A DNA stretch of 64,000 nt from Halothiobacillus diazotrophicus (GTDB lineage Bacteria > Pseudomonadota > Gammaproteobacteria > Halothiobacillales > Halothiobacillaceae). The stretch is taken from contig NZ_CP016027.1 in NCBI RefSeq assembly GCF_001663815.1, positions 372,001 through 436,000 on the forward strand. The letters are read 5' to 3'. Under the pieces are notes generated by a model, which ran no database searches, was not told the origin of the DNA, and saw only the letters and a list, made by a program, of their open reading frames with translations. Below are positions 6,482-39,666 of this stretch, one piece after another. Position 1 is the first letter of the stretch; every line of letters begins with the position of its first letter. The translations under genes were made by a program, and so were the position numbers.

Positions 6482-7312
6482 ATGAACGATCCCATCACCG
6501 AAGTGCGGTCGGCCCTTGCCGCCGGTCGGGTCATCCCCTACATCGGGCCGGGCGTCCTCGCCGCCGCCGGTGCGGATCTGCCGAGCAATCTGCCGACCCT
6601 GGCGGAGATCCTGAGCAGCCGGGTTTCCGTGCCGCACAAGATACGCAAGAATTTCACCGCGGTCGCGCAGTACATCGAGAATTTCAAGCACCGCAAATCC
6701 CTGAAGGCGGTGCTCAACGATCTGTTCTCCGTCGCCACGCCGGTGCCCGAGCTGATGAAGACGCTGGCCGGAATGGATCTGCCGATGATCGTCAATCTCT
6801 GGTACGACAACACCTTGGCCCAGGCGCTCAAGGATCAAGCCAGCTGGGGCCGGATCCAGGGATTCAGCCAGTCCGAGCATTACGGCCAGTGGTACGGGTT
6901 CTACCAGCCCGACGGCACGGCCACGGATGCCGCGACGGCCGAAAGCTGGACCACGGTGCTCTACGAGCCCTGGGGCTCGATCGTGCCAGATCAGAACTAT
7001 CTCGCCTCCGATGCGGACTTCGTGGAAGTGCTGACGGAAATCGACATCCAGACGCCCATCCCGCAGATCGTGCAGGATCGGCGCAAGGATCGCGGCTTCC
7101 TGTTCCTGGGCTGCCGCTTCGACGACCAACTGCAACGGACCTTCGCCCGCCAGATCATGAAGCGTTCCTCGAATCGGCACTGGGCCGTGATCGAAGGCGA
7201 GCTCACCAAGAAGGAAGCGCGGTTCCTGGAAGAGCAGGGGATCGAGCGACTGGATATCAGTCTCGCGGAAGTACTGAATGGGGCCTTGACCGACGAGGCT
7301 GTGCCTGCCTGA
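6482..7312 (+). CDS. SIR2-like domain protein in the nif operon
   Basis: 276 residues resembling the SIR2_2 group of NAD-binding Rossmann proteins. Visible are an N-terminal VIPYIGPGVLAAAG (the usual G-A-G-x-S nucleotide loop is altered to G-P-G-V-L), MIVNLWYDNTLAQAL at the place of the usual TTNYD motif, and a C-terminal GFLFLGCRFDDQLQRTFA matching the family's closing motif. The classical sirtuin catalytic His context is not obvious, so deacylase activity is uncertain; NAD or ADP-ribose sensing or hydrolysis are alternatives. It follows the ferredoxin gene by 63 bases, with AGGAGACATGTC before the ATG, and ends the plus-strand nif run. Confidence 0.75.
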   Translation: MNDPITEVRSALAAGRVIPYIGPGVLAAAGADLPSNLPTLAEILSSRVSVPHKIRKNFTAVAQYIENFKHRKSLKAVLNDLFSVATPVPELMKTLAGMDLPMIVNLWYDNTLAQALKDQASWGRIQGFSQSEHYGQWYGFYQPDGTATDAATAESWTTVLYEPWGSIVPDQNYLASDADFVEVLTEIDIQTPIPQIVQDRRKDRGFLFLGCRFDDQLQRTFARQIMKRSSNRHWAVIEGELTKKEARFLEEQGIERLDISLAEVLNGALTDEAVPA

Positions 7313-10119: not shown

Positions 10120-10407
10120 TTAGCCGAACTTGAACAGGATGCCGTGCCCGCCGCGCGGATAAGCCCAATCCACGTTATGGTGTTCCGAGCAGATGATGCG
10201 GCAGGTGCCACATTCCAGGCAGCCGTCGGTATTCAGTTCCACACCACCCGTTTCGGTGGCCGAATAGCAGGCGGCCGGGCAGGCGAAGGTGCAGGCCTGC
10301 ACTTCACAGGTGCTGGAACAGACCGATGGATTGGCAATCTGGATATGCGGCCGGCCTTCGTCGACCTTGTAGCGATTCTGGAACAGTTTTTCTTCGATCT
10401 TGATCAT
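10120..10407 (-). CDS. fixX: FixX, ferredoxin-like partner of FixABC
   Basis: A 95-residue ferredoxin-like protein. It has a Cys set [19 protein letters not shown] and a second [14 protein letters not shown], followed by the closing [18 protein letters not shown] typical of FixX. It forms part of the electron-bifurcating FixABCX complex, which makes low-potential electrons for nitrogenase from NADH. The ATG at 10407 overlaps the fixC stop as ATGA and has GGAGAGCGACGAG upstream, so I prefer it to the longer open frame starting at 10422. Confidence 0.95.
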
Positions 10408-11705
10408 CTCGTCGCTCTCCACATGCGGAAGGCGTCACCCATGAGTCCCCACAGGGAACGCCGTTGTACAAAACTCTTGCGAATCGCGCGTTCCTTGCTG
10501 TGCTTGTCCTCGCCGTCCACCGTGAGCATGGTGTGCGCCGCGCGGTTGAGCAGTTGGGGATACACCGAAAAGAACTGCGGGTTGTTGTGCAGGGTATCGG
10601 GCAGTTGCCGGTACTTGTGCAGATCCTTCATCACGAAGCTTTCGTCCATGGCCGTCTTGTAGCGGGCCAGGTGCGCCGCCGTGCAGGGCATGCCCTCGTT
10701 GTGCAGGGCGATGACGGTTTCCGCAGCGAGCCTGCCGCTAGTCATGGCGAGGTTGGAACCTTCGCGGTGGGCGGCGTTGACGAGCCCGGCGCTATCGCCG
10801 ACCAGCATCCAGCCATCGCCGTACATCTGCGGAATCGCCTTGTAGCCGCCTTCGGGAATCAGGTGGGCCGCATATTCCTTCATCTCGCCGCCTTCGATGA
10901 GTGGGGCGATGGCCGGATGGGCCTTGAGTTCCTCGAGGAGGGTATAGGGTGCGATGCCGGCCTTCTTGAAGTCCGAGACCATGCAGCCGATGCCGAGGGT
11001 GATGGATTCGCGGTTGGTGTACAGGAAGGCGGTGCCGACCATGCCGTGGGTGACGGACCCGAAGATCTCGATGACGACACCTTCGTCGCCTTTCACGTTG
11101 AAGCGACTCTCGACGACTTCCTGGGGCAGGAAGTGGATTTCCTTTACCGCCAGCGCGACGTTCTTGGGGGCGATTTCGTCATGGAAACCAGCTCGGGTGG
11201 CGAGCAGAGAGTTGACGCCATCGGCCAGGATCACCACGTTCGCATAGATGTCGCCGCCTTCCCGGTCGGTGCGTACGCCGATGACCTTGCCGCTCTCGTC
11301 GCGCAGCAGTTCGGTGACGGTGGTCTCGCAGATCACGAGCCCGCCAGCTTCCTTGACCTTGCTGGAGAACCATTTGTCGAAGGGCGCGCGCAGGATCGTG
11401 TAGCGGTTGGGTTTCTCGCTGTTGAATTCGTCGGAGCGGTAGTTGCTGCCGATGAAGGACTTGTCGTCCAGCACCCACATGCGCTGTTCGATGATGTGGC
11501 GCTCCAGCGGCGCATCCTCGCGAAAATCCGGGATGATGCGTTCCAGCGCATCGGCGTAGAGAATGGCGCCCTGGACGTTCTTGGTGCCCGGCGTCTCGCC
11601 GCGTTCGAGTTGCAGGACGTTCAGCCCCGCCTTGGCGAGGGTATAGGCTGCCGCATTGCCGGCCGGGCCCGCACCCACGACGATCGCATCAAATTTTTCG
11701 GCCAT
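10404..11705 (-). CDS. fixC: FixC, FAD-dependent ETF-quinone oxidoreductase-like
   Basis: A 433-residue flavoprotein of the ETF-QO family. The N-terminal dinucleotide-binding motif is [19 protein letters not shown], ending in [12 protein letters not shown]; a second FAD contact is [11 protein letters not shown] near residue 300. In the FixABCX complex this subunit accepts electrons and passes them to quinone. It lacks its own Fe-S domain, which FixX provides; the two genes overlap by four bases. A good GGAGTCTC precedes the start after fixB. Confidence 0.95.
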
Positions 11706-11724: not shown

Positions 11725-12816
11725 TTAACCGGCCCGACGATTCACAGCCAGACGGCTGCGGAATGCCTCGGTCAGGGCGGGAAGGATTTTCAGCGCATCG
11801 CCGACGATGCCGTAGGTCGCAAAGTCGAAGATGGGGGCATTGGGGTCGTTGTTGATGGCGATGATCACGTCCGCCCCTTCCATGCCGACCCGATGCTGGA
11901 TCGCGCCGGAAATGCCCGCTGCGATGTAGAGATTCGGGCGTACCGTCTTGCCGGACTGGCCGATCTGCCGATCCGCAGAAAGCCATCCGGCGTGGGTGAC
12001 CGGACGCGAGCCGCCGACCTCGGCGCCGAGTACGGCGGCCAGATCCCAGATCAGCTTGAAGTTTTCGGCCTTGCCCATGCCGCGGCCGCCGGCCACGATC
12101 AGGTTGGCGTAGGCGAGTTGCGCCTTGTCCTGGTCTTCATCGGGGATGAAGGACAGCACCTTGGCGATGATGTCGTTTTCCACCATGCCGAGCTGTTCGG
12201 TGACGAAGCGTCCGGTCCGGCCCGGTTCGGCATCCGGCATGGACATCACGCGCGGGCGAACTGTGGCCATCTGCGGCCGGTAGTTGAGCGTCTGGATGGT
12301 GCAGAGCAGGCTGCCGCCGAAGGTGGGCCGGGTGGCCAGCAGGCCGCGGTTATCCGGATCGATCGCCAGTTCCGTGCAGTCGGCGGTCAGGCCGGTGAGC
12401 AGGGTGGTGGCGACGCTGCCCGCGAGATCGCGTCCCAGGGTGGTCGCGCCCAGCAGCAGGATTTCCGGCTCGTACTTGTTCACGAGGTCCGTCATCGCCT
12501 TGGTGTAGGGCTCGTTGCGGTAGTCCTTGAGTATGGGGTCGGACACCGTGTAGGCGACATCGGCACCGTAAGTGAATGCGGTTTCACCGGCGGCGGCCGT
12601 TTCGGCCGGATCGCCCCCCAGGACGACGGCACCCAGCTCGACGCCGAGGACGTCGGCGAGTTTGTGCCCTTCGCCCATCAGTTCCCACGAGACCGGATGA
12701 ACCTGGCCGCGCTCCATTTCCACAAAGACCCAGATGCCCTTGTACGAAGCAAGGCGCGGGTCGAGTTCCAGGCGCTTCTTGCCTTTCGGGGCGGGTTTAG
12801 CTGCGTTATCGCTCAT
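11725..12816 (-). CDS. fixB: FixB, electron-transfer flavoprotein alpha subunit
   Basis: A 363-residue ETF alpha-type subunit. The FAD-binding C-terminal domain is clear: [57 protein letters not shown] and the [21 protein letters not shown] block. With FixA it forms the flavodoxin-like core of the bifurcating complex. The N-terminus carries an extra basic, Lys/Ala-rich stretch before [11 protein letters not shown]. It lies between fixA (25 bases away) and fixC (19 bases). Confidence 0.96.
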
Positions 12817-12841: not shown

Positions 12842-13687
12842 TTAACCGGCGATCAAGCCGAGCTCGCTGGCCAGACGGGGATGCTGGCCTGTCAGTACGT
12901 CGAGCAGGGCGGCCGCCTTGGCTTGCGGGGTATCACCGTCCACGCCGATCATCTGTGCCTTCACGGCCTTGGGTTTCGGCGCGAACACCTTGCTGACCAC
13001 GGTGGGCGAACCCTTCAGGCCGATCTTGGTGACATCCTCGATACCGGCGCGATCCTTGCTCCACTTGGGTACTTCGGCCCGGGCGGAGCGGAACATGTCG
13101 CTCATGGTGGCGAAGCGGATCTGGTTGGTGCCTTCCAGCATGGTGATCAGGGCGGGCAGTTGCGTCTTGATGACCTGGACGCCGCCTTCTGAGCGGCGCT
13201 GGATCGTGATGGTCTTCTGATCGAGATCGACGGCATCGACGGCCGATACATAGGTCAGGAGTTGCAGGCCGAGCCGCTTGGCGATCCCCGGGCCGACCTG
13301 GGCGGTATCGCCGTCGATCGTCTGCTTGCCGGTGAAGACGATGTCCACGGGGCTTTCCTCGCCGATCGTGCGGATCGCCTGGGCCAGGGCGAAGGAGGTG
13401 GCCAGGGTGTCGGCGCCGGCGAATGCGCGATCCGTCAGCAGCACCACGTCATCCACCCCGTAGGCGATGGCCTTGCGCAGGGCGTCTTCCGCCTGCGGCG
13501 GGCCCATGGTCAGTACGGTGACGCGTCCGCCCATCTTGTCTTTCAGCCGGAGCGCCTCTTCGATGGCGAACAGGTCGAAGGGGTTGATGATCGCCGGAAC
13601 GCCCTGACGCATGATGGTGTTGGTGACCGGGTGGACCCGGATCTGCGCGCTGTCCGGAACCTGCTTGATGCAAACGACGATATGCAT
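12842..13687 (-). CDS. fixA: FixA, electron-transfer flavoprotein beta subunit
   Basis: A 281-residue ETF beta-type subunit. The N-terminus [20 protein letters not shown] is the family start, followed by [17 protein letters not shown] and the bifurcating-flavin segment [19 protein letters not shown]. The open frame runs back to 13846, but the ATG at 13687 has GAGGAGTCAACC before it and gives the normal length. It is the first gene of the operon. A sigma-54 promoter is seen about 50 bases upstream of the start (13737-13751), with NifA-type sites beyond. Confidence 0.96.
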
Positions 13688-13736
13688 GGTTGACTCCTCG
13701 CCCCTGTCGGGTATGGGTTTGTTTACAGGGGTATGA

Positions 13737-13751
13737 GCAAACTTCGGGCCA
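13737..13751 (-). promoter_or_regulatory. Sigma-54 (-24/-12) promoter for fixABCX
   Basis: Read on the minus strand this is TGGCCC-N5-TTGC, preceded by T and followed by TC, against the consensus TGGCAC-N5-TTGC. The invariant GG (13749-13750) and GC (13737-13738) have the required 10-base gap. Transcription would start near 13725, leaving a leader of about 40 bases before fixA. A TGT-N10-ACA activator site is about 110 bases upstream of that start point. Confidence 0.85.
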
Positions 13752-13829
13752 ACTGTTTTCCGTTTTTTAACTTGTGGAAAAAAAAGAAGAAAATGGCCTT
13801 TGTCATGAGGTTTCATTCTGTTCGTTTCG

Positions 13830-13845
13830 TGTCGCATTTCCGACA
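13830..13845. promoter_or_regulatory. NifA-type upstream activator site 1 (TGT-N10-ACA)
   Basis: TGT-CGCATTTCCG-ACA matches the NifA binding consensus exactly. Its centre is about 112 bases upstream of the predicted fixA transcription start, inside the 80-150 base range typical for NifA-dependent promoters. Confidence 0.8.
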
Positions 13846-13972
13846 AATCGGCGGTTTTGTCGAGACTCCGACCCGCGGCAGGTTCAGGTGAGGTTCTTCT
13901 TTTCCTGTGTGATCTCGGCCGTCACTGCATCACTGCCATCACGTCTCATCGAACGGGTGTCGGCGTCTCCGA

Positions 13973-13988
13973 TGTTCTATCCGGGACA
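13973..13988. promoter_or_regulatory. NifA-type upstream activator site 2 (TGT-N10-ACA)
   Basis: TGT-TCTATCCGGG-ACA, an exact match to the NifA consensus. It lies between the two divergent promoters, about 255 bases from the fix start point, and could be a secondary site. Confidence 0.55.
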
Positions 13989-14163
13989 CGGACTGCTATT
14001 TCGTTCGATTGGCTGGGTGGGGCATCGCGTGCCTGCAGGATCGAATCGGTCGATTCAATACCTCTTTATACAGGGACCACTGTGTGGCACGGACAGGTCG
14101 GCGGTTCGCTTGAGGGCGGGGCGTCCCGTTTCTGACAAAACGATGAATCAAACCCTGCGTTTA

Positions 14164-14179
14164 TGTCGGAAAGGCAACA
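14164..14179. promoter_or_regulatory. NifA-type upstream activator site 3 (TGT-N10-ACA)
   Basis: TGT-CGGAAAGGCA-ACA, an exact match to the NifA consensus. It is the nearest such site upstream of the feo sigma-54 promoter, about 240 bases from its predicted start point. That is longer than usual but workable with DNA bending. Confidence 0.6.
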
Positions 14180-14385
14180 GGAACCGCCACGGATGCTGCG
14201 TTCGCCCGCCTTTGTGAGGGAACGTTGAATTGCACCGATTTGGGGCTCATGCCGGAGATGGCGCGGATTGGTCGAAGTCCCATGCGCTAAGGGCGGGCAA
14301 ATGAATTTTGCTGCGGCGGTATTACGGGATATCCCGGGATAAATAGGACTTGTTGCGTGCGGTATTCCGGTGCATCGGGTTTTTG

Positions 14386-14400
14386 TGGCACGGTTCCTGC
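14386..14400 (+). promoter_or_regulatory. Sigma-54 (-24/-12) promoter for the feo operon
   Basis: TGGCACGGTTCCTGC matches TGGCAC-N5-TTGC with one change (CTGC for TTGC). GG (14387-14388) and GC (14399-14400) have the exact 10-base gap, and T follows. The predicted start is near 14412, giving a leader of about 210 bases before the first feoA. Confidence 0.8.
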
Positions 14401-14494
14401 TGCGTGCTAGTTAGGCGGCTTGGTTCGCACCCCGGACAACACGGGGGGCAACACCGGGGACAACATGGGTATTCCGAATGGTTTCCCTGGCATA

Positions 14495-14526
14495 TTCGAA
14501 TGGCGTCTTCGAATGGCGTCTTCGAA
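14495..14526 (+). repeat. 13-bp tandem repeat in the feo leader
   Basis: Two perfect copies of TTCGAATGGCGTC and a third partial TTCGAA lie between the sigma-54 promoter and feoA. Each unit contains the palindrome TTCGAA. They are inside the predicted untranslated leader. Confidence 0.7.
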
Positions 14527-14543
14527 ACGCGGGCCAACCGATG

Positions 14544-14578
14544 TGGGATATCCCGGAGATCTTGATCTCGAAATCCCA
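14544..14578 (+). promoter_or_regulatory. Nested hairpin in the feo leader
   Basis: Outer arms TGGGAT / ATCCCA enclose an inner stem GAGATC / GATCTC with a TT loop. It ends about 44 bases before the first feoA start codon, so it could affect translation or mRNA stability. No known riboswitch class is recognised. Confidence 0.4.
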
Positions 14579-14621
14579 TCCCGAGATCCCGATTTGTGAT
14601 CACTGAAGCGAGGCATTCATC

Positions 14622-15020
14622 ATGGCATTCTGGTTCGGCTCATCGACCCTGACGATGGAAGACTTCACGGCATCGCCGACACCGGCGAGCGACCGCTCTT
14701 CGGCTCGGGTAGCCACACCCGCAGCGCCCCGGATGCCGATGGGTCAGACTGACCCAGCGACGCGGCCGACAAGCGCCCGCAAGGACGGTTTTGCCCTGGG
14801 CCTCGCCACACCCGGGGCCCGTGTCGGCGTCACCGAGATCACCGGAAACAACCCTGCGCTGGAAAAGCGCCTGGAGGCCATGGGTATCCGCGTGGGTTCC
14901 GCGCTGGAAGTGTTGCAGCATGAAGGCGGCTCGGTGATCGTGCGCATCGGGACCACGCGGCTGGCGCTCGGGGTCTCGATGGCGCATCGCCTGCGCGTTG
15001 CGTCCCTCGATCTACATTGA
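14622..15020 (+). CDS. feoA: FeoA-domain protein with N-terminal extension
   Basis: 132 residues. About residues 58-130 form a FeoA (SH3-like) domain: LATPGARVGVTEITGNNPALEKRLEAMGIRVGS, then EGGSVIVRIGTTRLALGVSMAHRLRV. The first 55 residues are a low-complexity extension rich in Ser, Thr, Ala and Pro, unlike a standard FeoA of about 75-80 residues. FeoA proteins support Fe(II) transport by FeoB. A second, normal-length FeoA follows 28 bases later. The 5' leader has the sigma-54 promoter and repeats described at 14386-14578. Confidence 0.9.
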   Translation: MAFWFGSSTLTMEDFTASPTPASDRSSARVATPAAPRMPMGQTDPATRPTSARKDGFALGLATPGARVGVTEITGNNPALEKRLEAMGIRVGSALEVLQHEGGSVIVRIGTTRLALGVSMAHRLRVASLDLH

Positions 15021-15048: not shown

Positions 15049-15291
15049 ATGAGCGACGCCATCCACCTGACCATGCTGAAAGCCGCCGAGCGCGGCATCG
15101 TTCGGGGCTTCGCACCGGGAGATGCCCATTACCGACGCCGCCTGATGGCGATGGGCTTGACGCCGGGTACGGCTTTCACGGTCACCCGTCTGGCACCGCT
15201 GGGCGATCCGATTCAGATCGAGGTGCGCAATTCCGCCCTGACACTGCGCAAGGACGAGGCGATGATGCTGCGGATCGATCGTCTCGCCTGA
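15049..15291 (+). CDS. feoA: FeoA, ferrous iron transport accessory protein
   Basis: An 80-residue FeoA of normal size. It contains ERGIVRGFAPGDAHYRRRLMAMGLTPGTAFTV and PIQIEVRNSALTLRKDEAMML, the two halves of the SH3-like fold. The ATG at 15049 follows CGAGGAGATCAGCC, a very good ribosome site, so the longer open frame from 14998 is rejected. It is the second of two feoA genes before feoB. Confidence 0.95.
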   Translation: MSDAIHLTMLKAAERGIVRGFAPGDAHYRRRLMAMGLTPGTAFTVTRLAPLGDPIQIEVRNSALTLRKDEAMMLRIDRLA

Positions 15292-15454: not shown

Positions 15455-17815
15455 ATGGCAACGTTTACGGTCGGCATGATTGGCAATCCCAATTGCGGAA
15501 AAACGACGTTGTTCAACGCGCTGACCGGGTTGCGGCAGAAAGTCGGCAACTGGCCGGGCGTCACCGTGGAGCGCAAGACCGGCGCGTTCGAGATCGACGG
15601 CAATCCGATCGAACTTGTCGACCTGCCCGGTACCTATTCGCTGGATGCATCCTCCAGTGCTTCCCTCGACGAGATCGTGGCCCGGGAATTCGCCCTGTCC
15701 CATGAGGCGGATGTGATCGTCAACATCGTGGATGCCAGCAATCTCGAGCGGAACCTGTACCTTACGGCGCAATTGATGGAGATGCGCGTCCCCTTGATTC
15801 TGGCCGTCAACATGCTTGATCTCGCAGAGGAAGCGGGGATCAGCGTCGATTGTGACGAGATGGCCCGCCGGCTGGGCTGTCCGGTCGTTCCGGTTACGGC
15901 CACGCGCAAGACCGGGCTCGATGAGCTCAAGCGGCAATTGCTGGCGCGCGCCCGGCATTCGGACGAGCCCGGCATCCGCATCGAATATGCGCCGCTGCTC
16001 GAAACGGCGCTGCGGGATCTGATGTCGCGTCTGGAACCGATTGCGCAGCGTCATCGCGTCGACGCGCGCTGGCTGGGCGTAAAACTGCTGGAGCAGGATC
16101 GTCAGGCGGAAGCCCTGGCCGATGAGCCGTTGCTGGCGGCCGTCGCGCAGGCTCAGGAACAGATTCGCGCCCATCTCGACGAGGAGGCGGACGTCTTCGT
16201 CGCCGATGCCCGCTATACCTTCATTCACGGCGTCGTCCAGGCTTGCGTGAAACGGCGGGGGCAGCTGCGGCGTTCGCTCACCGATCGCATCGATGCGGTG
16301 GTGCTGAACCGGTTCCTCGGTATCCCCATCTTTCTGCTGGTGATGTACCTGCTCTTCGTGATGAGTTTCAACGGCGGGGGGATCTTCTCCGATTTCTTCG
16401 AGCAGTCGGCGCAGGCCATCTTCGTCGATGGCGTGGGGCATCTGTTACAGCTCATGCATGCGCCCGACTGGTTGATCACGCTGTTGTCGACCACCGTCGG
16501 TGGGGCCATCCAGCTCGTGGCAGCCTTCATCGCGCCGATCGGCATGACCTTCCTGTTCCTGTCCATCCTCGAGGATTCCGGCTACATGGCCCGGGCCGCC
16601 TTCGTGATGGATCGCTTCATGCGCCGAATCGGCCTGCCGGGCAAAGCCTTCGTGCCGATGATCGTGGGATTCGGCTGTAACGTGCCGGCGGTCATGGCGA
16701 CCCGCACGCTGGAAGATCCCCGGGAACGGCTGATTTCCGCCCTGATGCAGCCGTTCATGTCCTGCAGCGCGCGGCTGGTCATCTACATGGCGTTCGTGGC
16801 CGTGTTTTTTAAGGCACATGGCGGTCAGGTGGTGTTCGGGCTCTATCTGCTCGGCATCGTGGTGGCGATCCTCACGGCACTGCTGCTCAAGCGCACCGCC
16901 CTGAAGGGCGAAGCCACGCCGTTCGTGATGGAACTCCCGACCTATCACATCCCCACACTCAAGGGATTGATGCTCGCCACCTGGGAGCGGCTGTCCGTCT
17001 TCATCCTGCGGGTGGGCAAGGTGATCATCGTCGCCTCGACGGTCGTGACCTTGCTGTCGAGTTTCAGCCTGAGCGGCCGACCGGTGGCTGCCGGGGATAT
17101 CGAGAACTCGGTGCTGGGGCAGGTGGGCAAGGTGGTCACGCCGCTGTTCCATCCGATGGGTGTGACCGACGAAAATTGGCCGGCGGCCATCGGCCTGTTT
17201 TCCGGCGTCGTCGCCAAGGAGATCGTGATGGGGACGATGAATGGCGTCTACAGCCGGATGGATGCCGGCGATGCCGCCGCGGCGCGTCAGGCGAATCCTT
17301 CGGTCGAGCCGCCGGCTTTTGATCTCTGGCAGAGCCTGGGTGACGCCGTCGCCACGATTCCCGCCAATGCCGCGACATTCGCGCACGGGTTCTTCGATCC
17401 CCTGGGCTTCAGCAGTCTCGAACAGGCCAGGGACAGCAATCTCCAGCAGGTGGCCGCGCAGCAGAATCTCGATACCACGACGCTGTCGCGGATGGCATCG
17501 CTCTTCACCGTTCCCGCTGCGCTGGCGTACCTGATCTTCGTGCTGCTCTACATGCCCTGCATCAGCACCATGGCGGCGCTGTACCGGGAAACCCGTAGTC
17601 GCGCCTGGAGTCTGTTCTCCATGGCCTGGGGCATCGGTCTGGCCTATGGTCTGGCCGTCGCGTTCTACCAGTTGGCCACCTATGCCGAGCATCCGGTCGG
17701 CACGGTGGTCTGGCTCGTCGTTCTGGTCGGGCTGCTGGGGATCGTGATAGCCCTGTTGAAGCGCCAGGGGCGGCAGGGCTTTGGGGCTGTTGTTCGCTCG
17801 ACGATGGCGACTTGA
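15455..17815 (+). CDS. feoB: FeoB, ferrous iron transporter
   Basis: 786 residues. The cytoplasmic N-terminal GTPase domain has G1 GNPNCGKT (residues 10-17), G3 LVDLPGTYSL and G4 AVNMLD. After a helical linker come two Gate regions and about eight to ten membrane helices, with conserved VGFGCNVPAVMATRTLEDPRERL and MQPFMSCSARLVIYMAF. It imports Fe(II) across the inner membrane using GTP. It is the last gene of the feoA-feoA-feoB operon, whose promoter is of the sigma-54/NifA type, linking iron uptake to nitrogen fixation. A 163-base gap separates it from feoA; nothing regulatory was recognised in it. Confidence 0.97.
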   Translation: MATFTVGMIGNPNCGKTTLFNALTGLRQKVGNWPGVTVERKTGAFEIDGNPIELVDLPGTYSLDASSSASLDEIVAREFALSHEADVIVNIVDASNLERNLYLTAQLMEMRVPLILAVNMLDLAEEAGISVDCDEMARRLGCPVVPVTATRKTGLDELKRQLLARARHSDEPGIRIEYAPLLETALRDLMSRLEPIAQRHRVDARWLGVKLLEQDRQAEALADEPLLAAVAQAQEQIRAHLDEEADVFVADARYTFIHGVVQACVKRRGQLRRSLTDRIDAVVLNRFLGIPIFLLVMYLLFVMSFNGGGIFSDFFEQSAQAIFVDGVGHLLQLMHAPDWLITLLSTTVGGAIQLVAAFIAPIGMTFLFLSILEDSGYMARAAFVMDRFMRRIGLPGKAFVPMIVGFGCNVPAVMATRTLEDPRERLISALMQPFMSCSARLVIYMAFVAVFFKAHGGQVVFGLYLLGIVVAILTALLLKRTALKGEATPFVMELPTYHIPTLKGLMLATWERLSVFILRVGKVIIVASTVVTLLSSFSLSGRPVAAGDIENSVLGQVGKVVTPLFHPMGVTDENWPAAIGLFSGVVAKEIVMGTMNGVYSRMDAGDAAAARQANPSVEPPAFDLWQSLGDAVATIPANAATFAHGFFDPLGFSSLEQARDSNLQQVAAQQNLDTTTLSRMASLFTVPAALAYLIFVLLYMPCISTMAALYRETRSRAWSLFSMAWGIGLAYGLAVAFYQLATYAEHPVGTVVWLVVLVGLLGIVIALLKRQGRQGFGAVVRSTMAT

Positions 17816-37794: not shown

Positions 37795-38160
37795 CGTGTC
37801 GGCACATCCCTCCGGCCGTTGGTCGCGTGATCGGGGCAACAAGTCCCGATCTGGCCCTGTCTCCCGGTATTCTCGCGCGAAGCCATGCGGGAAACCAGCC
37901 ATTCCTTGTCTTGTTTCGGACATTAGGCAGGCGATCGCTGTCATCCCGTCGACAGATGGACGCGGCCCCTGATGCCCAAGTCATTGGTTTGAAGCCGATG
38001 AACGTGTCGATAGTCATGTTTTTCCCTGGGGCACCGGGGGTGGCATTGTACTTGCTGTGTTGCCTGTATTTGATTGCACAGGTTGTATTTCCGACAACGG
38101 GATCTGACTTTCAGCCGCGAACGGGTTTCGGAAATGCGCCCAAGACCAGAGGATAAGAAC

Positions 38161-38625
38161 ATGGCAACACTTGAAGAAGGCAGGATATCCATCGCGTTGC
38201 GCACGGGTAAACCGACAGGACTGGGCGATCTGGGCATTCCCCCGGGCGAAGAAACCCGGATCATGAAGGGTCAGGGGCATGAATTCGTGCAGACGCTTGC
38301 GGGCGGCGGCGTAGGCCGGATGTTTCAGAATATCCGCGTGATTGCCGTCTGGGCCCCATTGGGGGACGCGCCGGTCGTCAAACTATTCGTTATTCTGGAA
38401 GTATTCGGTGACAACACCCTGTCTCAGGGCCCGGAATGCGGCCTTACGCTCCGTTTGTATGCGGGCGCGCAACATCTCATGGATCTTCCCACGACCTCGC
38501 TGTTTCTGCCGTATCCGAATTGCTGGTACGACAACCGATTCGCCTTCGATCTGCCGGTTGACGTGTTCGAGGCTCTGGATCATGTGGCATTGATCGTCGG
38601 CGCGGACACCGTGGTGGTTCTGTGA
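38161..38625 (+). CDS. Conserved-looking protein of unknown function
   Basis: 154 residues from an ATG at 38161 behind AGAGGATAAG; the open frame extends to 38074 without ribosome site. No signal peptide or membrane helix. The protein has blocks such as GVGRMFQNIRVIAVWAPLGD, VFGDNTLSQGPECGLTLRLYAG and LPVDVFEALDHVALIVGADT, suggesting a compact beta-rich fold. I do not recognise a family. The next ORF starts 33 bases later, so the two may be co-transcribed. Confidence 0.6.
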   Translation: MATLEEGRISIALRTGKPTGLGDLGIPPGEETRIMKGQGHEFVQTLAGGGVGRMFQNIRVIAVWAPLGDAPVVKLFVILEVFGDNTLSQGPECGLTLRLYAGAQHLMDLPTTSLFLPYPNCWYDNRFAFDLPVDVFEALDHVALIVGADTVVVL

Positions 38626-38658: not shown

Positions 38659-38976
38659 ATGTCCGCGGCTAGTCCGACGGCGACAGACTATCTGCAGCTG
38701 TTCGAGCGTTACGGCACGGATTTCGGTCCGGCGTATCTGGCGCCGGAGGATGAGCGTTACCGCCTCCTGTTCGACCAGATCTGCCGGCTCCTGGTCGCGC
38801 CCTCCAGCTTCAATCAAGCGATGCCCCAGGAGTTCCGGCAAGCTGCAAAGCGCTATCTGGCCGGTGAGGCGTCGACCCTGGCACATCTGCGCGATCCACA
38901 GAATCGGCATTTCATGCTGAGCGATCTCCACGACTATGTCCATCTGACGGCGCACATGGGCGGTTCTGGCTGGTAG
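38659..38976 (+). CDS. Small cytoplasmic protein of unknown function
   Basis: 105 residues, mostly helical, with YLQLFERYGTDFGPAYL, LLFDQICRLLVAPSSFNQAM and a His-rich end MLSDLHDYVHLTAHMGGSGW. No signal peptide and no recognised motif. It follows the unknown gene at 38161 by 33 bases; there is GGGAATCGGGA before the ATG. Confidence 0.55.
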   Translation: MSAASPTATDYLQLFERYGTDFGPAYLAPEDERYRLLFDQICRLLVAPSSFNQAMPQEFRQAAKRYLAGEASTLAHLRDPQNRHFMLSDLHDYVHLTAHMGGSGW

Positions 38977-39114: not shown

Positions 39115-39666
39115 ATGACACAGCCACTGAACAACAAGAAAGTCGCCATTCTGGTCGCAGATGGCTTCGAACAGGTTGAATTGCTCGAACCGCGGAAGGC
39201 ATTGGCAGAAGCCGGTGCGGAGACGGACGTGGTCTCGCCGTCCGAAGGATCGGTAAAAGGGTGGAATCATACCGACTGGGGACAGGGTGTTCCCGTCGAC
39301 AAGGCGCTCGATAAAGCCGACGCGGCTGATTACGATGCCCTGGTCCTGCCTGGTGGGGTGATGAATCCGGACCAATTGCGTCGCAATCCCAAGGCGCTGG
39401 CTTTCGTCAAAGCGTTTTTCGCGCAACACAAACCGGTCGGTGCCATCTGTCACGGCGGCTGGACGATGATCGACGCCGGCGTCGTCGATGGACGGCGCAT
39501 GACGTCCTACTGGAGCATCCAGTCCGATCTCAAGAATGCCGGCGCCCATTGGGTCGATGAGGAAGTGGTGGTCGACGATGGCCTGGTCACGAGTCGCAAC
39601 CCCGATGACCTGCCGGCATTCAACCGCAAGCTCGTCGAGACGTTCGCCATGGGCGGTCACGCATGA
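39115..39666 (+). CDS. DJ-1/PfpI family protein (YhbO-like)
   Basis: 183 residues of the DJ-1/PfpI class I glutamine amidotransferase-like fold. Markers are VAILVADGFEQVELLEPRKAL with the Glu, the nucleophile elbow GAICHGGW with the Cys, and TSRNPDDLPAFN at the end. Relatives act as glyoxalase/deglycase or stress-protective enzymes; the exact reaction cannot be set from sequence. The ribosome site GGGAGGTTTATGTC is good. An intrinsic terminator follows at 39716. Confidence 0.92.
   Translation: MTQPLNNKKVAILVADGFEQVELLEPRKALAEAGAETDVVSPSEGSVKGWNHTDWGQGVPVDKALDKADAADYDALVLPGGVMNPDQLRRNPKALAFVKAFFAQHKPVGAICHGGWTMIDAGVVDGRRMTSYWSIQSDLKNAGAHWVDEEVVVDDGLVTSRNPDDLPAFNRKLVETFAMGGHA

Follow-up and report, generated by a model that had tools for sequence, protein, structure and literature searches.

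In Azotobacter vinelandii, Fe(II) uptake genes are induced upon nitrogenase derepression, and in Bradyrhizobium japonicum mutation of feoA or feoB abolishes nodule nitrogenase activity, according to the available text of a 2023 review (PMC10669500). According to the same text, it is not known whether A. vinelandii raises its iron uptake because iron is falling or through coupling to nif derepression. In the Gram-positive Paenibacillus sp. WLY78, feoAB was up 54- and 12-fold under N2-fixing conditions, and the available text describes neither a direct nif-type feo promoter nor a nif-dedicated second feo copy (PMC4774088). In Table 1 of another source, feoABC appears under metal acquisition as part of the machinery for nitrogen fixation (PMC12903952). 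At the fixABCX-nifA1 locus of Mesorhizobium loti R7A, a -24/-12 promoter precedes fixABCX in a set also defined by a NifA upstream site, as in the locus described here; the term feo is absent from the available text of that paper (PMC3538637).

In the available open-licence literature on feo and nif control, we found no description of a NifA/sigma-54 promoter preceding feo, and the term feo is absent from the text of several papers on NifA regulons or nitrogen-fixation regulation. The nif genes of Paenibacillus are not known to be run by NifA and sigma-54. The NifA/sigma-54 promoter type is itself known; what is new in Halothiobacillus diazotrophicus is its apparent feo target and the probable exchange of Fur for NifA control between paralogous operons. 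Whereas nif coupling is left undecided for A. vinelandii in the review, a direct nif-type promoter is predicted here.

The spacer between fixABCX and feoAAB

The window, that is the whole 64-kb stretch analysed, covers bases 372001-436000 of a genome assembled as one contig of 2,908,964 bases (2.909 Mb). A spacer of 934 bp (13688-14621) separates fixABCX, on the minus strand, from feoA1-feoA2-feoB, on the plus strand. The flanking genes are as follows.

10120-10422, minus strand: fixX, ferredoxin-like (NCBIfam FixX, E 5.5e-19, under cut-off)
10404-11705, minus strand: fixC (NCBIfam FixC-type FAD oxidoreductase models, under cut-off)
11725-12816, minus strand: fixB, ETF alpha-type (NCBIfam electron-transfer flavoprotein alpha models, under their cut-offs)
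12842-13687, minus strand: fixA, ETF beta-type (Pfam ETF, E 1.7e-45)
14622-15020, plus strand: feoA1, nif-linked copy, 132 aa, N-terminus MAFWFGSS (Pfam FeoA, E 3.3e-15)
15049-15291, plus strand: feoA2, nif-linked copy, 80 aa (Pfam FeoA, E 8.3e-21)
15455-17815, plus strand: feoB, nif-linked copy, 786 aa (Pfam FeoB_N, Gate, FeoB_C and FeoB_Cyto, all over cut-off)

FixA of the window is 85% identical to FixA of Acidithiobacillus, while FixB and FixC are 87% and 86% identical to those of the congener G007. The feo operon combines FeoA domains with the FeoB G domain and Gate domains that define a Feo transporter, and Fe(II) transport is predicted. The genome also carries nifH, nifD, nifB, nifU and draT, and RpoN is encoded elsewhere in it (over cut-off). 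A SIR2_2-domain protein (window 6482-7312) lies within the nif region near nifS-like and aminotransferase-like genes.

The spacer contains matches to the -24/-12 consensus TGGCACR-N4-TTGCW (12 specified positions, with GG and GC 10 bp apart) and to the NifA upstream site (UAS). These are listed below with the nifA gene.

13736-13751, minus strand: fixA -24/-12 (sigma-54) promoter, TGGCCCGAAGTTTGCT, 11/12
13830-13845, no strand assigned: UAS1, TGT-N10-ACA, 94 bp upstream of the fixA -24 element
13973-13988, no strand assigned: UAS2, TGT-N10-ACA, 237 bp from the fixA -24 and 413 bp from the feoA -24
14164-14179, no strand assigned: UAS3, TGT-N10-ACA, TGTCGGAAAGGCAACA, 222 bp upstream of the feoA -24 element
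14386-14401, plus strand: feoA1 -24/-12 (sigma-54) promoter, TGGCACGGTTCCTGCT, 11/12
Genome 360992-362629: nifA, 706 bits against a cut-off of 529

The first-pass annotation had reported a -24/-12 element facing each way and three exact TGT-N10-ACA sites, and all five were recovered at these positions. Its chance rate for the latter, one per 4 kb, was about fourfold too high: the genome holds about one per 15 kb, with 194 exact sites against 230 in a reversed control and no genome-wide enrichment. Three sites in the 934-bp spacer compare with an expected 0.062 (P for three or more 3.8e-5, uncorrected for the choice of this spacer). UAS3 and UAS1 are inverted copies of each other over 23 nt (83%). 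In the 64-kb window, exactly two sites reach 11/12 or better with GG and GC fixed, namely the fixA and feoA1 elements. The strict pattern TGGCMC-N5-YTGCW occurs 34 times genome-wide and 23 times in the control, so most genome-wide matches may be due to chance; the spacer holds two, each facing its own gene, with 0.011 expected. Neither motif alone is informative genome-wide; the combination of both is.

Of the 23 sigma-54-like sites (10/12 or better) in a 124-kb region that takes in the window and the nif genes, 11 are preceded by an exact UAS at 70-300 bp, a range picked after the distances had been seen. In 5,000 circular shifts the mean was 0.99 and none reached 11. The same 124 kb (247,970 positions) were scored with a weight matrix built from ten fixA promoters of other genera. 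The scan placed the fixA promoter at rank 3 and the feoA1 promoter at rank 11 but left the nifH promoter outside the top 30, and the matrix is therefore imperfect.

Further sites of this kind were seen elsewhere in the genome. A sigma-54-like site at window 38041-38056 (plus strand, 10/12) has exact UAS at 37907 and 37939, 134 and 102 bp upstream, and is followed by two ORFs with no Pfam match (38074-38625 and 38659-38976) and a DJ-1/PfpI gene (39115-39666); it may be an additional target of NifA, one that lies outside the nif cluster. At L001:7863-8072 (genome 319863-320072), two divergent sigma-54-like sites, 11/12 each, flank a single UAS (genome 319978); an amine-oxidase-like gene lies on one side of them, and on the other a run of genes with SelO, an FAA hydrolase and a Rieske protein among them. 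The nifH promoter (12/12; L003:5692-6028, genome 357692-358028) has UAS at 86 and 246 bp, and a second sigma-54-like site there (10/12) points the opposite way, toward an ORF without Pfam match and draT. Between a gene for a periplasmic substrate-binding protein and one for an acetamidase/formamidase, L098:5355-5768 (genome 1091355-1091768) holds two divergent strict-pattern -24/-12 sites and is perhaps a general nitrogen-limitation control region.

The fixA promoter was compared across 80 fixA loci from named genomes, with flanks of up to 10 kb, many of them shortened by contig ends. One of these loci, L005 (JAJYYE010000011.1), comes from a metagenome-assembled genome that we took as G007 on the basis of FixA identity. 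A -24/-12 element (10/12 or better, at most 250 bp from fixA) was found in 16 loci, each of which carries an exact UAS within 600 bp as well; both elements are missing from the other 64, where fixA presumably sits inside longer operons. The position of the promoter is conserved in Acidithiobacillus and G007. The distance from UAS to promoter is 93-94 bp in six Acidithiobacillus loci (L004 and L006-L010), in L005 and in the window, and 82-86 bp in the remaining nine of the 16. In an eight-row alignment of fixA upstream regions, the TGT, ACA, GG and GC columns are invariant. Assignment of the fixA promoter to the NifA/sigma-54 type is thus a firm prediction.

A second, nif-linked feoAAB

The first-pass annotation overlooked that this feoAAB is a second copy: a housekeeping feoAAB, preceded by a Fur-like box, is also present in the genome, and nif linkage therefore applies to the additional copy alone. 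This genome has two FeoB genes, with 74% identity between them, and each of nine congeners has one; no FeoB was found at E 1e-60 in 17 further genomes of the family. All ten housekeeping copies, including the one in this genome, are in feoA-feoA-feoB order, the same as the nif-linked copy, with 72-75% FeoB identity between the two kinds.

The two kinds differ in what precedes them. In all ten housekeeping copies, feoA1 is preceded by AAATGACTATTGTTCTCATTT (six exact, four with one mismatch), which we call Fur-like for its resemblance to the Fur consensus, Fur binding being putative. In the spacers of the nif-linked copies no such box was found, the best match having 8 mismatches in 21 positions in the window and 9 in G007. 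Conversely, the housekeeping copies have no convincing sigma-54 promoter: within 500 bp, nine of the ten lack a sigma-54-like site of even 9/12, and G008 has a 9/12 site. Best matrix values for the seven housekeeping upstream regions scored ran from 3.1 to 10.3, and the feoA1 sites of the window and G007 scored 12.6 and 15.2. The highest of the seven, from G005, is not much lower than that of the feoA1 site in the window. In the 500-bp comparison, the start codon used for G005 lies far upstream, which displaces the stretch examined for that genome. An exact UAS does not discriminate by itself, because three of the ten housekeeping feoA1 genes also have one within 500 bp.

In a 16-row tree, the ten housekeeping FeoB form the sister group of the nif-linked FeoB (96/96), a placement that depends on one long branch (0.36), that of the nif-linked copy. 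This position implies a duplication at least as old as the genus radiation, fast evolution, or origin in an unsampled near relative. The long branch would also fit a redundant copy that is being lost and has no function beside the nif genes, as would the state of G007, which keeps feoA1 alone there with transposase-like sequence directly downstream. Against such decay, all three reading frames in the window are uninterrupted, FeoB keeps its full length and every one of its Pfam domains, and codon-position GC (0.65/0.43/0.82) is like that of a working gene; we give this explanation very little credence.

Among other candidates in and around the spacer, a 147-aa ORF (13774-14217) was rejected as a hidden gene, being without a coding signature (codon-position GC 0.56/0.52/0.56). 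The spacer and feoA1 leader gave zero Rfam matches up to E 1 for an RNA element or riboswitch, and no IHF site was found in the spacer at a threshold of 8/9 positions. The leader contains three tandem 13-nt repeats at window 14488-14526, one TGGCATATTCGAA and two TGGCGTCTTCGAA, and GGGATATCCCGG is present twice, at 14326 and 14545.

The feoA1 promoter and the arrangement in G007

FixA was detected at E 1e-60 in two of the ten genomes comprising this one and its nine congeners, the other being G007. FixABC of the two are sisters (97/88) and together sister to the six Acidithiobacillus loci in a 28-row tree. G007 also has a feoA1 beside its nif genes.

L107:4266-4598, minus strand: orphan nif-linked feoA1 of G007, within the nif cluster

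The nif-linked FeoA1 of the two genomes are 66% identical in the FeoA core, share a MAFWF start found in no other of 16 FeoA1 compared, and pair in the tree with moderate support (88/86). Neither feoA2 nor feoB was found beside the G007 gene; the sole FeoB of G007 is on another contig, and the sequence directly downstream of feoA1 reads like a transposase. FeoA alone in G007 may act on the housekeeping FeoB.

In G007, feoA1 and fixA share a strand and are about 4.5 kb from each other, separated by a gene for a beta-helix protein and transposase-like ORFs, and each has its own -24/-12 element and its own UAS. With separate elements at such a distance, the divergent spacer is not conserved as a shared switch. 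The idea that the spacer is a control region shared by fixABCX and feoAAB also sits poorly with the window itself, where the nearest UAS differ for the two genes (94 bp for fixA, 222 bp for feoA). The two spacer promoters look independent, and a rearrangement in one of the two lineages likely accounts for the differing layouts. Nor is a divergent fixA/feo layout conserved more widely: within flanks of at most 10 kb, many of them truncated at contig ends, FeoA or FeoB is near fixA in one of the 80 loci, that of G007, in a different orientation.

Linkage of feo to nif was also surveyed across the class. NifD was detected at E 1e-150 in 31 of 369 sampled genomes, this one included, and FeoB was sought in 32 genomes (the 30 others with NifD, G007 and G000), of which 20 gave a match at E 1e-40 or better. 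Among these 20, G000 is the only one with FeoB and NifD on one contig and no more than 100 kb apart, the next nearest FeoB being about 133 kb away in G162; absence elsewhere is a weak negative, because apart from G000 the two share a contig in only G151, G162, G274 and G287. Nif-linked feoA was found in two genomes and the full nif-linked operon in this genome only.

The feoA1 promoter of the window has CTGC rather than TTGC at -12; its predicted start lies about 12 bases past the -24/-12 element, giving a leader of about 210 nt. In G007, the nif-linked feoA1 has a -24/-12 element TGGCACAAAAAATGCT (11/12) and an exact UAS TGTCGGCTTTGCAACA, 239 bp apart. UAS and promoters are not in register when the two upstream regions are aligned, so what is common to both is the pair of elements and their rough distance, not the whole sequence. 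Since the G007 gene has its own elements in a different gene order, a nif-type feoA1 promoter is seen in two genomes and in different neighbourhoods.

It might still be that fixA alone is a NifA/sigma-54 target, the feoA1 match having arisen by chance and feoAAB using an unrecognised promoter. In favour of this, the strict pattern is only mildly enriched genome-wide, the feoA site has a lower score than the one before fixA, and in one housekeeping region the best value is no more than about 2 bits below that of the feoA site. Two strict sites in the spacer, each facing the right gene, are nevertheless far above expectation, an equivalent site precedes feoA1 in G007, and the spacer gave neither a sigma-70-like site in our scan nor a Fur-like box, so that we regard a chance match as quite improbable.

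A NifA/sigma-54 promoter before feoA1 is well supported by these comparisons. NifA sites usually lie roughly 80-150 bp from the promoter, and the 222-239 bp seen here, beyond that range, weakens the NifA assignment for feoA1. The remoteness of UAS3 would suit a real sigma-54 promoter driven by another enhancer-binding protein, such as NtrC, with uptake following general nitrogen limitation and UAS2 and UAS3 belonging to fixA or to chance. Other sigma-54-like sites in the genome do precede likely nitrogen-scavenging genes (for example those for an acetamidase/formamidase and a periplasmic substrate-binding protein). We nonetheless consider control of the NtrC type unlikely, given that feoA1 of G007 has an exact UAS at a similar distance even though fixA is 4.5 kb off, and that nifH of this genome likewise has its second UAS at 246 bp.

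Predicted nif control of Fe(II) uptake

That FixABCX and the nif-linked Fe(II) uptake operon belong to one predicted nif regulon, as first proposed for this spacer, is supported by footprinting in relatives. The duplicated Feo operon has probably exchanged Fur-type for NifA/sigma-54 control, with two independent promoters pointing outward from the spacer. We infer that NifA sitting on UAS1, at a distance of 94 bp, would stimulate RpoN-polymerase to transcribe fixABCX from the fixA promoter, and that the resulting FixABCX would deliver electrons to nitrogenase. At the other end, NifA bound at UAS3 would reach the feoA1 promoter over 222 bp by DNA looping and switch on feoA1-feoA2-feoB for Fe(II) uptake. 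The cell would then import more iron as it commits to making iron-rich nitrogenase, not once iron has become short.

In the simplest history, the nif genes would have been acquired once, from an Acidithiobacillus-like source and prior to the divergence of the two lineages, and a native-type feo copy would already have been linked to them at that divergence. We tentatively suggest a fuller account, which we would not yet favour over its alternatives taken together: the acquired nif regulon may have captured a duplicate of the host's Fe(II) transporter by exchange of a Fur-type for a NifA/sigma-54 promoter, giving nitrogenase a feed-forward, Fur-independent iron supply. In the sister lineage the unit may have shrunk to FeoA alone, tuning the housekeeping FeoB under nif control.

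Both circuits appear to be present in this one genome, with a Fur-like box before one feoAAB and a NifA-type promoter before the other, which makes the question of iron response versus nif coupling testable within one strain. If the proposed exchange is true, it would also show how a regulon gained by horizontal transfer can bring a host gene under its control through a change of promoter.
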